57,222 nucleotides of DNA from Candidatus Nealsoniibacteriota bacterium (GTDB taxonomy: Bacteria; Patescibacteriota; Minisyncoccia; Minisyncoccales; GWA2-38-27): the NCBI GenBank assembly GCA_030617105.1, contig JAUWWC010000003.1:1-57222 (forward strand). Direction: 5' to 3'. Of this stretch, positions 25,022 to 49,835 are shown one piece after another. The translations under genes and the position numbers were made by a program. Under the pieces are notes generated by a model that worked only from the letters and a program-made list of their open reading frames with translations, was not told where the DNA came from and ran no database searches. The first letter of the stretch is position 1; each line of letters begins with the position of its first letter.

Positions 25022-25098
25022 CTTGACAGATTTGAGAATATGCGATAAACTGTAAATATCGTGAAAAACTAAAATAGCAACTTTAAAATTTGAAAGGA
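25022..25098 (+). repeat. Promoter-leader repeat, copy 2
   Basis: Near-identical to 24068-24144. TTGACA (25023-25028), 17-bp spacer, TAAACT (25046-25051). It drives the 79-aa gene. Confidence 0.9.
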
Positions 25099-25103
25099 AA
25101 GAA

Positions 25104-25343
25104 ATGATGATTGAAGAACTTTACAAAATATCAAAAGTATTGTTTATGGGTTCATTCCCTACCGCGCTTGGGAGGATTGGGGTTGTTTGGCTTCTTTCCT
25201 GCTGGATTGTATGGATTATTGTATCAATAAGATACAAAAATCTAACGATTTCTACTACTGTGGGTCTGATTGGTGTCATAGGTTTTATCTCAGCAGTGCT
25301 AATATCTGTGTATATCAATCAGCCATTTACGTGGAAAACCTAA
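25104..25343 (+). CDS. 79-aa two-span membrane protein
   Basis: Not recognised. Two hydrophobic segments (IGVVWLLSCWIVWIIVSI and TVGLIGVIGFISAVLISVYI) separated by a short basic loop. Two adjacent ATGs follow AAAGGAAAGAA. The cargo is unrelated to the 90-aa protein although the promoter and leader are copies. A strong terminator closes the unit. Confidence 0.65.
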   Translation: MMIEELYKISKVLFMGSFPTALGRIGVVWLLSCWIVWIIVSIRYKNLTISTTVGLIGVIGFISAVLISVYINQPFTWKT

Positions 25344-25422: not shown

Positions 25423-25872
25423 ATGAAAATCTTAGCTGAAAATAGAAAAGCGAGGTTTGATTATGAAATCCTGGAAAGGTTTGAAGCAGGCATGGTTTTG
25501 ATTGGCCAAGAAGTCAAATCAATAAAATCAGGAAGAATGAGTTTAAAAGGCTCTTATGTGACGCTAAGAGGAGAAGAGCCGTATTTAGTCGGAGCTAATA
25601 TCCCTGCTTATCAGCCAAAGAACATTTCTCCGGATTATGAGCCAGAGAAACCAAGAAAGCTTCTTCTGAATAAATCAGAAATTAAGCATTTAATCGGTAA
25701 AACAAAGGAAAAGGGCTTGACTTTAGTGCCCTTAAAAGTGTATACTAAGAAAGGAAAAATAAAGCTTGGGTTTGGAATAGGAAAAGGAAGAAAGAAAGCT
25801 GATAAAAGAGAATTAATTAAAAAAAGAGAAACAGAAAGAGAAATAGACAGAGAATTAAAATCACGGGGATGA
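25423..25872 (+). CDS. smpB: SsrA-binding protein SmpB
   Basis: The 149-aa partner of tmRNA in trans-translation. Typical motifs: NRKARFDYEI, GQEVKSIKSGRMSLKGSYV, LLLNKSEI and the C-terminal basic tail (ADKRELIKKRE). A TAATAT box 6 nt before the ATG suggests a leaderless transcript. The last 8 nt, including the TGA, are also the predicted 5' end of tmRNA. Confidence 0.97.
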   Translation: MKILAENRKARFDYEILERFEAGMVLIGQEVKSIKSGRMSLKGSYVTLRGEEPYLVGANIPAYQPKNISPDYEPEKPRKLLLNKSEIKHLIGKTKEKGLTLVPLKVYTKKGKIKLGFGIGKGRKKADKRELIKKRETEREIDRELKSRG

Positions 25873-26185
25873 ATAGTTTCGACAGAAGTTTTTTGTCAAA
25901 ATAGAGCAGGTAAAATATTCTCAAATAAGTGCCAACTTGTTTAAGAAACCCGCGTTAGCTTTTGCTTAACGCCGTCAAGATTACCGATTCTCGCTAAGTA
26001 ATCTTTGGCGTGATAATAGCGAGATAGATAGTTCTTTTTGTCTCAGAAAAACTATCAAAACAAACGAGACTAAGGTGTTGGAATTTTGTCTGTTTCCAAT
26101 TTAACACTCTAAAACTAAAACAGACTAAACCTGTAGAACTATTTTGATAAAACTTTTGGATGCGAGTTCGCCCTCGCCATCTCCA
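25865..26185 (+). ncRNA. ssrA: tmRNA
   Basis: Starts GGGGATGAATAGTTTCGAC and ends with the TTCG T-arm and CATCTCC, which pairs with the first seven bases; discriminator A at 26185, CCA not encoded. The likely tag frame runs from CAG at 25907 to TAA at 25967-25969 and ends KKPALAFA, a hydrophobic degradation tail. It overlaps smpB by 8 nt and its 3' end is 2 nt from the infC start, so both messenger parts must be released by processing. Confidence 0.95.
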
Positions 26186-26187
26186 CA

Positions 26188-26697
26188 GTGCAAAGAAAAC
26201 CATTGGTCAACAATCGAATAAGAGCTAGAGAAGTAAGACTAATTGATGAAACTGGAAAGCAATTAGGAGTTTTGGCGTTAGAAAAAGCGCTCCAAATAAC
26301 CAGGGAGCGCGATTTGGATTTAATTCAGGTTACTGAAAAAGTTGAGCCGCCTGTTTGCAAAATAATGGATTATGGAAAATATCTTTACCAGTTAAAAAAG
26401 AAAGAAAGATCAGCTAAACATCATAAAGGCGGTGAACTCAAAGGAATAAGATTGACTTTTGGGATTTCTGAACATGACTTAGAAACAAGGACAAAGCAAG
26501 CAGAAAAGTTTCTAAAAACAGGAAATAGGGTAAGAATAGAGATGAAATTAAGAGGCAGGCAAAAAGCGCTTCAGGGATTTGCTAGAGAAAAGATAAGGAA
26601 ATTCCTGGAAATCTTGGAAAAAACAATCCCAATAAAAATAGAAAGGGAATTAAAAAGACAACCAAGAGGATTAACAATGATTATATCTAAAAAGTAA
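26188..26697 (+). CDS. infC: Translation initiation factor IF-3
   Basis: A 169-aa protein with the IF-3 signatures RIRAREVRLIDETG, the VCKIMDYGKY linker start, and the C-terminal domain GISEHDLETR / VRIEMKLRGRQ. IF-3 selects initiator tRNA and start codons on the 30S subunit. The start is GTG at 26188, only 2 nt past the tmRNA 3' end, so no Shine-Dalgarno can exist outside tmRNA. First of infC-rpmI-rplT. Confidence 0.95.
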   Translation: MQRKPLVNNRIRAREVRLIDETGKQLGVLALEKALQITRERDLDLIQVTEKVEPPVCKIMDYGKYLYQLKKKERSAKHHKGGELKGIRLTFGISEHDLETRTKQAEKFLKTGNRVRIEMKLRGRQKALQGFAREKIRKFLEILEKTIPIKIERELKRQPRGLTMIISKK

Positions 26698-47390: not shown

Positions 47391-48368
47391 ATGAAAATAT
47401 TAAGTGGCATCCAACCAACAGGTTCAATACATATAGGGAATTACTTAGGCGCTATTAAGCAATGGGTTGAGCTCCAAGAAAAAAATGAATGCATTTTTTT
47501 CATTGCTGATTTGCATTCTCTAACTATTCCCTACAAACCAGAAGAACTGGCAAAAAATATCATTGAAGCGGCTATTGCCCACTTAGCAGCTGGCATTGAT
47601 CCTCAAAAGAGCATTTTCTTTGTCCAATCAGATATTAAAGAACATACAGAACTTTGTTGGCTTTTAAATACTGTGTGTCCAGTTGGTGAGCTTCAAAGAA
47701 TGACCCAGTATAAAGAAAAGACAAAGCAGTTTAAGAAAAACATTAATGCTGGCCTTTTAGTTTATCCTGTTTTGCAGGCAGCTGATATTTTACTTTACAA
47801 AGCAGAAGGAGTGCCAGTGGGCAAAGACCAGGTCCAGCATATTGAGCTAGCAAGAACAATTGCCAGAAAATTCAATCAGAGATTTGGCAAAGTATTTCCA
47901 GAACCCAAAGCTCTGCTTCCTAAAATAGGAGCTAAAATAATGGCTTTAGACAATCCAAAGCAAAAGATGTCAAAATCATTAGGCCCGCAAAGCTATATTT
48001 CTCTTTTTGAAGATTCAAAAGAAATCAAGAAAAAAATAATGTCAGCTGTTACTGACACTGGCAAAGTAATAAAATACAATCCTAATAGAAAACCAGGAAT
48101 CTCTAATCTTTTAACAATTTACAGTTTGTTCAGTGAAAAACCAATAAAAGAATTAGAAAAGAAATTCAAAGACAAGGGTTATGCTTATTTCAAAAAATCC
48201 CTAACTCAACTCTTAATTGACTCTTTAGAACCTTTTCGCAAGAAAAGAAAAGAACTCCTCTCAAGAGAAGTCTTTGTTAAAGAAACTCTTAAAGTAGGAG
48301 CAAAGCGAGCCCAACCAATTGCCGAATCCACCATTCACGAAACCCGCGCCAAAATGGGCCTCGCCTAA
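47391..48368 (+). CDS. trpS: Tryptophanyl-tRNA synthetase
   Basis: A 325-aa class Ic synthetase. HIGH reads HIGN in GIQPTGSIHIGNYLGA, substrate residues lie in FIADLHSLT, and KMSKS is intact (KQKMSKSLGPQSYI). It ends HETRAKMGLA. A 22-bp stretch of its 3' end (48338-48359) is repeated at 49799-49820. A strong terminator follows. Confidence 0.96.
   Translation: MKILSGIQPTGSIHIGNYLGAIKQWVELQEKNECIFFIADLHSLTIPYKPEELAKNIIEAAIAHLAAGIDPQKSIFFVQSDIKEHTELCWLLNTVCPVGELQRMTQYKEKTKQFKKNINAGLLVYPVLQAADILLYKAEGVPVGKDQVQHIELARTIARKFNQRFGKVFPEPKALLPKIGAKIMALDNPKQKMSKSLGPQSYISLFEDSKEIKKKIMSAVTDTGKVIKYNPNRKPGISNLLTIYSLFSEKPIKELEKKFKDKGYAYFKKSLTQLLIDSLEPFRKKRKELLSREVFVKETLKVGAKRAQPIAESTIHETRAKMGLA
48338..48359. 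repeat. 22-bp direct repeat, left copy (trpS 3' end)
   Basis: Starts CGAAACCC and ends ATGGGC; identical to 49799-49820. It encodes ETRAKMG of TrpS. Confidence 0.85.
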
Positions 48369-48375
48369 TGTATCT

Positions 48376-48418
48376 AAAAAAAAGCCGCTGCGAAAAATAA
48401 CAGCGGTTTTTAATTTTT
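48376..48418 (+). terminator. trpS terminator
   Basis: AGCCGCTG / CAGCGGTT stem with A-run before and TTTT after. Confidence 0.9.
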
Positions 48419-48455
48419 ACCACCTAGCCTTACTACAAGGAACGCTATTTGCTAA

Positions 48456-48599
48456 CTAATGAAGAGCGACTCCGAAACCAACTCCAAAAAGTAAGGCAAG
48501 AAAAATTGCAAGATAAAGTGAGCCAAACTTTAATCCTATTGGAAACCCAATAACTCCAAATACCAATCCCAACATAGGACCACTATATTTATCTTTCAT
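48456..48599 (-). CDS. 47-aa hydrophobic peptide
   Basis: Not recognised. A short, Gly- and Phe-rich product starting MKDKYSGPMLGLVFGVIGF, with two hydrophobic stretches and a break at LKFGS, so it could span the membrane twice. Start support is good: GAAAGGGAAAGAA before the ATG and a consensus promoter. Its leader end matches that of the 79-aa gene at 25104. It lies downstream of the candidate RNA on the same strand. Confidence 0.6.
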   Translation of the reverse strand: MKDKYSGPMLGLVFGVIGFPIGLKFGSLYLAIFLALLFGVGFGVALH

Positions 48600-48693
48600 T
48601 TCTTTCCCTTTCAAATTTTAAAAGACCTTAAATTTCTAATTTTTCACTAAATATCACTATTTATAATTATATTCATTTACTGAATCCTGTCAA
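48600..48693 (-). promoter_or_regulatory. Promoter and leader of the 47-aa gene
   Basis: TTGACA (48688-48693), 16-bp spacer, TATAAT (48666-48671). The leader end (TTTAAAATTTGAAAGG...AAGAAATGA) matches the 25022 repeat, and GTGAAAAA is shared upstream of it. Confidence 0.7.
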
Positions 48694-48771
48694 TAACAAA
48701 AAAAAATGGTAGGTATCCCTTTATGGACAGTAATCCATTTTCTGTGTCCAATTTTCTGTTTTTTTCAAAAC

Positions 48772-48980
48772 AAAAAGCCGTTTAAATGTCTGTCTAAAAA
48801 TAAGCAGGTCAAAAGAAGAACAAACTCTTTTTTCTTACCTTGAATCTATTTTATCTCGCGAGTGGAGAAAAAAGAACCTGAGAGAATCTTCCTAAACTTT
48901 ATCCTCTTACATTAGAAACTGCCTCTCCGTGAGCATTGACTTCGCTGGTGGTAGACAGCAGAACTTACATTAAACGGCTA
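48772..48980 (-). ncRNA. Candidate structured RNA of unknown class (~205 nt)
   Basis: A TTGACT (49009-49014), 16-bp, TAAAAT (48987-48992) promoter places +1 at about 48980. The 5' end GCCGTTTAATGT (48978-48967) pairs with 48777-48789 (one bulge), and CTGTCTA (48958-48952) pairs with 48796-48790. Two inner hairpins are visible (UUUCUAA/UUAGGAA inside GAGAG/CUCUC, and UCUUUUUUCU/AGAAAAAAGA). The closing stem is followed by TTTTTGTTTT. No reading frame of note. Branched shape argues against 6S RNA; no RNase P or SRP motifs seen. Confidence 0.6.
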
Positions 48981-49054
48981 ACTTCCATTTTAAAGATTAT
49001 AAATAATTAGTCAAGTCCCTTTTATAATTGTTTTAAAATTGGTATTATAAAAGA

Positions 49055-49654
49055 ATGTGGCTGATAAATTTTGCTAAAAAAATAATGGTTTTGTTATGGA
49101 GAATCTTTCTTGTTATTGGTATTTTTTGGGCGGGTATTTCCATATTTTTGCAAACCGAAAATATCACTCTTGAAAATGGAACATTAGCAACACTTTTAGG
49201 TATTGTTCTAGCTTTCATAGCAATAATCTCTGTTCTTTGTTATAAACTAATCTGGATGCAGATAAAAGAAGATGTAGATAAAGAGAGAGAATTTTCAAAG
49301 GCAGAGATTCTTCTTACTCAAGGTTATCTTCTTTGGCGAATTTATGAAAAACATAAAGATAATAATCTACTAACAGAAGCTATAACTTATACTGAAGGAG
49401 TAATCATAATTTTAAATCCTTTTGAGAGAAAACTACAAAGAAAATACGGGAAGTTTATTTGTATAGCGAAGGGTAATTTAGCTTATTATTTGGCGGAAAG
49501 AGGAAGGACAGATGATAAGGAAAAAATTAAAGCATTGATGGGATATGTTCTAACTAAAAAAAGAAAATATCCAAGTTGTGCTAAACTTTGGACAGATGAC
49601 TGTTCAATTATATCTCAAAAATTTCCAGGACTAAATCTTTCTTGTGATTGTTAA
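49055..49654 (+). CDS. 199-aa membrane protein
   Basis: Not recognised. Two N-terminal membrane segments (IFLVIGIFWAGISIFL and TLLGIVLAFIAIISVLCY) are followed by a helical cytosolic part with TPR-like spacing (EAITYTEGVIIIL) and four cysteines near the C-terminus. An extended -10 (TGGTATTAT) ends 6 nt before the ATG, so a leaderless message is predicted. It lies within the repeat-bounded island. Confidence 0.65.
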   Translation: MWLINFAKKIMVLLWRIFLVIGIFWAGISIFLQTENITLENGTLATLLGIVLAFIAIISVLCYKLIWMQIKEDVDKEREFSKAEILLTQGYLLWRIYEKHKDNNLLTEAITYTEGVIIILNPFERKLQRKYGKFICIAKGNLAYYLAERGRTDDKEKIKALMGYVLTKKRKYPSCAKLWTDDCSIISQKFPGLNLSCDC

Positions 49655-49835
49655 CTTCCTATTGCTCCTCCTGTTGGCATAATAAACTTTAATCTTAATT
49701 TAATCTTAATTTAATTATATCATAGATTAAATAAAAAGAAAAACCTATGAAACAGGAACACCCACAAAAGAAGGCATTTTTTGACCTCCTGAGCCGTGCG
49801 AAACCCGCGCCAAAATGGGCTTAACATAATTATAA
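49655..49835. other. Intergenic remnant zone
   Basis: AT-rich tandem TTTAATCTTAA units near 49690-49720, then a decayed-looking stretch with AGGAGG and a 10-codon frame on the minus strand (49745-49777), then the right copy of the trpS repeat. No credible gene. Confidence 0.5.
49799..49820. repeat. 22-bp direct repeat, right copy
   Basis: Identical to 48338-48359. The frame continues as ETRAKMGLT and stop, so it resembles an orphaned trpS 3' end. Confidence 0.85.

Follow-up and report, generated by a model that had tools for sequence, protein, structure and literature searches.

Small RNAs and Islands of Comparable Kind

Bacterial genomic islands and prophages carry orphan small RNAs, which form a general kind and no family. 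The candidate RNA considered here has in common with them a short intergenic unit with its own promoter, a position in strain-specific inserted DNA and an absence of outside homologues. It differs from them in that its transcription is predicted, in that it has no target complementarity above that of shuffled sequences, and in that no local hairpin terminator forms its 3' end. Another RNA of similar outline is 6S RNA (Rfam family RF00013), with its long closing stem, a promoter just upstream and a length of about 200 nt. In contrast to 6S RNA, the candidate has no RF00013 match and lacks the core, GGGA...ACCCACYUGGAU, that characterizes the 6S-like RNAs of its order, and the 6S-like copy of the genome lies elsewhere. 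The DNA around the candidate can be compared with islands that are flanked by direct repeats at the 3' ends of genes. It has perfect 22-bp repeats, the 3' end of the host gene is kept, and a genus-mate has other cargo; however, this insertion is only 1.46 kb long and has no integrase inside.

The candidate was examined in a window of 57,222 nucleotides (the whole stretch of DNA that was analysed, to which plain coordinates refer). The source genome (G000), scanned throughout, comprises 542,946 bases in 17 contigs. With a probability of roughly 0.4, the candidate is an island-borne, strain-specific short transcript with a putative function. This reading is closely rivalled by one in which there is no RNA gene at all; the other explanations considered below are less likely than either.

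Layout of the Candidate Locus

An earlier note on this DNA proposed a candidate free-standing structured RNA, in which a consensus promoter points to a start at the base of a closing helix of 12 bp plus 7 bp whose 3' strand runs into a U-tract, with no reading frame inside. Much of this layout was recovered (Table 1). The predicted start, near 48980 on the minus strand, is indeed at the base of the closing helix and adjoins its 5' arm. The 3' arm does run into UUUUU, and the ORF list has no entry of at least 60 aa in the candidate, including the ~180 nt between the helix arms. The promoter is present and well spaced to the helix base, but it matches at 10 of 12 positions and is not a full consensus, and promoter-like sites show no excess over shuffles across the 1.2 kb around it (3 vs 4.4).

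Table 1. Features of the candidate locus and of the insertion that contains it.
Feature	Position in window	Strand	Remarks and basis
Candidate RNA	48772..48980	minus	~209 nt (~205-210), GC 38%, no ORF of at least 60 aa
Sigma-70-like promoter, TTGACT-16 nt-TAAAAT	48987..49014 (read 49014-48987)	minus	10/12; promoter scan
Closing helix, 5' arm, AGCCGTTTAA + TGT	48967..48979	minus	Inverted-repeat scan, pair probabilities
Closing helix, 3' arm, ACATTTAAACGGCT	48776..48789	minus	Sequence, inverted-repeat scan, pair probabilities
U5 tract (UUUUU), directly after 3' arm of closing helix	48776-48772	minus	Sequence
Marginal inner helix, 5' arm, CTGTCT (CUGUCU)	48953..48958	minus	Pair probability 0.08
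Marginal inner helix, 3' arm, AGACAG	48790..48795	minus	Pair probability 0.08
47-aa hydrophobic ORF	48456..48599	minus	Own perfect promoter 48693-48666; start 172 nt past U-tract
Orphan 199-aa ORF, hydrophobic N-terminal part	49055..49654	plus	Divergent from candidate RNA
Left 22-bp perfect direct repeat	48338..48359	plus	Inside trpS 3' end
Right 22-bp perfect direct repeat	49799..49820	plus	Directly before convergent pmm

The closing helix consists of 10 bp, a 1-nt bulge and 3 bp and is firm at its base. Nine pairs were examined: the probabilities are at least 0.96 for the first seven and fall inward to 0.35 at the ninth. The inner part of the proposed helix did not hold up as well: it amounts to 6 bp with a minus-strand pairing probability of 0.08, although a fold that is forced to include it costs only 1.6 kcal/mol. 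The stem encloses a 184-nt loop and so differs from a standard intrinsic terminator. The GC content of the candidate (38.4%) can be set beside that of its flanks (23.6 and 18.7%) and the genome-wide value (31.3%); it is near those of the 6S-like RNA (39.9%) and the tmRNA (37.0%) of the same genome.

Fold and Chance Expectation

On the minus strand the folding energy is not below that of dinucleotide shuffles (z 0.34 for 48772-49014 and -0.81 for 48772-48981), and an independent shuffle gave z -0.91, again no better than shuffles. What is left of the free-standing structured RNA is a modestly supported transcript, for which promoter placement and GC content speak, but minus-strand structure is unsupported beyond the closing helix.

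Co-occurrence of the parts was assessed in a genome-wide scan for inverted repeats of at least 12 bp with a loop of 100-300, followed by U5, with 120 Markov genomes as the null. The helix and U5 alone are at chance level (5 real places, null mean 4.7). Once a promoter of at least 10/12 at the correct spacing is also demanded, the candidate is the one real place, compared to a null mean of 0.008, and 1 of the 120 null genomes had such a place; with the promoter threshold lowered to 9/12, the null mean for the combination is 0.17. Local shuffles of the upstream 50 or 75 nt put a promoter of at least 10/12 in the right position in 1.2 and 1.9% of cases, respectively. The thresholds for the combination of helix, U5 and promoter were chosen after the candidate had been seen, and its rarity is therefore a modest sign and no proof.

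The nearest rival of the island-borne transcript takes the locus for a chance inverted repeat plus a promoter-like site, in DNA that is fast-changing, non-coding, horizontally acquired and possibly decayed cargo. The chance-level count of helix and U5 speaks for this reading, together with a minus-strand z of about -0.8, and it is also consistent with the lack of a homologue in 247 genomes and in the searched genus-mate sequence, and with relatives that have neither the 199-aa neighbour nor the RNA. It fits less well with the co-occurrence of the helix and a well-placed 10/12 promoter, rare in the nulls, or with a GC content far above that of both flanks. A chance repeat is a serious contender.

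The opposite strand behaves differently. The plus-strand fold beats shuffles over the same two stretches (z -2.8 to -3.1), and over two other stretches it has z -2.1 and -1.1. The structure could accordingly be that of a folded, cis-acting 5' leader of the 199-aa ORF, in which the inner helix would be included. Such a leader is improbable. The scan has no plus-strand promoter-like site at 48300-48772, and the sole plus site (49021-49048) would give the 199-aa ORF a near-leaderless start, with its mRNA beginning about at the ATG. The plus side also has no U-tract, and part of the difference between strands may be caused by G-U pairing in the shuffles.

Searches for Homologues

The Rfam scan that the earlier note had named as a check gave nothing over the candidate. 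At the gathering score of Rfam 15 no family covers it (the matches in the window are the tmRNA and one tRNA only), and a permissive local scan with E up to 10 returned chance-level matches, the best of which had E 1.2 or worse and were far under gathering scores. A blastn search of 60 relatives with the candidate returned no sequence but its own. The same is true for 247 genomes of the order, apart from six matches of 23-48 nt and 37-41 bits that are all in an A/U-rich stretch of the query (128-179) and are judged to be chance. A covariance model built from the candidate sequence alone (R2) likewise found only the candidate, both in the 60 relatives (matches in 5 other genomes scored 11.6-16.1 bits) and in the whole source genome plus 584 kb of the genus-mate G001 (nine others at 10.6-16.9 bits). 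Phage and plasmid collections gave no real match; a 16-mer of the candidate occurs in four IMG/VR contigs, which share 17 nt only.

The trpS proteins of the source genome and the genus-mate are 89-90% identical, and the 584 kb of G001 that were searched hold no copy of the candidate, so that a housekeeping role is excluded in practice. Since no relative carries it, nothing beyond an orphan transcript can be demonstrated for the candidate.

Copy number also bears on an origin from a transposon or a MITE-like element, which would be the 204-bp unit at 48776-48979, bounded by imperfect terminal inverted repeats. The ends of this unit do coincide with the inverted repeats, and the site is in a variable spot. 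However, the unit is single copy: no second site in the source genome or in 584 kb of G001 matches its 19-nt left end with <4 mismatches, blastn in 60 relatives found no further copy, and the flanks are without a clear target-site duplication. A mobile-element remnant is highly improbable.

6S-like RNA and Other Structured RNAs

The Rfam 6S model, RF00013, has no match in the source genome. Of 247 genomes of the order, it matches 8 with E no higher than 0.05 and none at the cut-off. Eight weak 6S matches, from seven of those eight genomes and from G003, were aligned (A1; a partial match in G143, L091, was omitted), and a lineage covariance model (R1) was built from the alignment. With R1, a 6S-like RNA is detected in 23 of 30 relatives, the source genome counted and one of them, G003, belonging to the training set. 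The genome's own 6S-like RNA is at G000:C13:8020-8157 (L119; 76 bits), and that of the genus-mate is on G001:C4 (86 bits). The 6S-like RNAs of the order combine the core mentioned above with an apical stem. In an alignment of 30 members (A3), 14 of the 15 apical-stem pairs predicted have changes on both sides; A3 was fitted to the model, and each of its 30 source loci had already been selected as a match. In the literature searched for 6S RNA with Patescibacteria or the candidate phyla radiation, no report of such an RNA was listed; the one paper found for Patescibacteria, PMC8321541, concerns the SRP in mitochondria, and none was found for the candidate phyla radiation.

R1, unlike the model of the candidate, retrieves a real housekeeping RNA from most of these relatives. 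This result means that the real housekeeping RNAs of the lineage are recoverable, and the candidate's want of homologues is informative for that reason. In the window R1 reaches at most 16.4 bits (E 0.94 or worse), with no match over 48772-48980. A 6S identity for the candidate was rejected, with R1 placing the 6S-like RNA of the genome on contig C13. RNase P was rejected as well: the RNase P RNA (RF00010) is at C14:2406-2696, with 93.7 bits, slightly below the cut-off, and has no match over the candidate. The tmRNA (RF00023) is in the window at 25865-26188, with 113 bits by Rfam; ARAGORN missed it.

The candidate had been described as showing no 6S, RNase P, tmRNA or SRP signature. For the first three this is upheld because those RNAs are found elsewhere in the genome. 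For SRP it is upheld in part: no SRP match is present in the candidate stretch, but an SRP RNA was not located elsewhere. No Rfam match to SRP RNA at gathering score was obtained across all 17 contigs of the genome, which is rated 96% complete, and simple SRP core motif strings had no match in it. A diverged copy of one of these housekeeping RNAs would account for the general look of the candidate, with its closing helix, promoter and U-tract. Against this, the 6S-like RNA, RNase P RNA and tmRNA are all elsewhere, the permissive Rfam scan shows no such match and the genus-mate has nothing similar, so that the chance of a disguised housekeeping RNA is close to nil.

Two other structured RNAs were observed in the source genome. 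A group I intron match (84 bits) is at G000:C5:43696-43882 (L155:3896-4082), and two tRNA matches follow some 1 kb beyond it. LOOT RNA, a described Rfam family (RF03000), is at G000:C8:25082-25194 (L158:5182-5294; 83.9 bits).

The Insertion at trpS and Its Cargo

The 22-bp repeat is present in two copies only in the entire genome, and these bound a 1.46-kb insertion at the trpS 3' end that contains the 47-aa hydrophobic ORF, the candidate RNA and the 199-aa ORF. In ten other loci, a complete trpS was available together with a pmm relative on the same stretch. The two genes are within 100 bp of each other in six of the ten (G003, G004, G007, G009, G060 and G096) and are separated by ~0.98-1.83 kb in the other four (G001, G006, G011 and G057). 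Direct repeats on the one hand and an uninterrupted trpS-pmm junction in relatives on the other are as expected of a site-specific integrative element at trpS, but the insertion has no integrase of its own; the single match to PF00589 (tyrosine recombinase) in the genome is on contig C8. An excised element with the 22-bp core (21 nt used as query) was not found in IMG/VR, and the GTDB contigs returned were those of the genus-mate and of four unrelated bacteria.

In the genus-mate an insertion at the same spot (G001:C17:12537-14311, L069) is closed by a duplicated 41-codon trpS 3' end. Its cargo consists of a 79-aa small ORF, a SocA/Panacea-domain gene (PF13274, E 2.5e-20) and a 139-aa ORF. The two cargos are linked solely by the promoter and leader of the small ORF (window 48597-48700 vs G001:C17:12854-12956), 96% identical over 104 nt, which exceeds the 85% of neighbouring trpS-region DNA; the small proteins differ. 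The 199-aa ORF has one 13-bit match in 19 other relatives and nothing beyond, no relative in GTDB genomes or IMG/VR, and no family above the cut-off. As a separate observation, a ribosome-binding leader motif of approximately TTTTAAAATTTGAAAGGGAAAGA precedes three unrelated genes (window 25082-25106, window 48597-48622 and G000:C6:1937-1963).

The small-ORF leader is relevant to an attenuator-like function, in which transcripts would stop at 48772 if the closing helix forms and would otherwise continue into the 47-aa membrane ORF. In favour of this, that ORF is on the same strand, in the same direction and 172 nt beyond the U-tract. It has, however, a perfect promoter of its own, which is kept together with the leader in the RNA-less G001, and no alternative antiterminator fold was seen. 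An attenuator, too, is improbable.

A more elaborate proposal, drawn by analogy, treats the insertion as a cargo cassette that is small and exchangeable in Patescibacteria and that carries a new two-part module, in which a divergent structured RNA would control or guide an orphan 199-aa membrane protein. The G001 cassette at the same site, with a gene like SocA/Panacea antitoxins and a partner ORF, offers a parallel to such a module. The proposal is nevertheless very improbable.

Proposed Role of the Transcript

In the preferred reading, that of an island-borne transcript, a strain-specific transcription unit of ~205-210 nt on the minus strand would ride as cargo in the trpS insertion of a Nealsonbacteria-type genome (Patescibacteria). 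An AT-rich region of 75 bp with back-to-back promoters (49014-48987 / 49021-49048) would direct the RNA one way and the 199-aa ORF the other way. The base helix would pair the two ends of the transcript and may protect both, and the U-tract would be its 3' end. Transcription, 3' end and any function are predictions from this arrangement. The likeliest role would be regulation internal to the island, with either the 199-aa ORF or the 47-aa membrane ORF as its target, the latter by read-through or in trans.

Complementarity to the neighbouring mRNAs does not exceed that of shuffles. For the duplexes of the candidate with the mRNAs of the 47-aa and 199-aa ORFs, 32 and 54% of shuffles, respectively, are as good, and the candidate therefore does not present itself as a type I antitoxin or antisense RNA. 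The lowest shuffle fraction among the complementarity tests, 5%, was for the trpS 3' mRNA.

Meaning for the Lineage

If it is a real transcript, the candidate would be a further strain-specific small RNA, from an uncultured lineage. The covarying 6S-like RNA of the order, which is below the Rfam cut-off, is worth more than the candidate RNA. The setting, a trpS 3' end at which small cargo accumulates in a family with tiny genomes, also matters more than the candidate RNA does.
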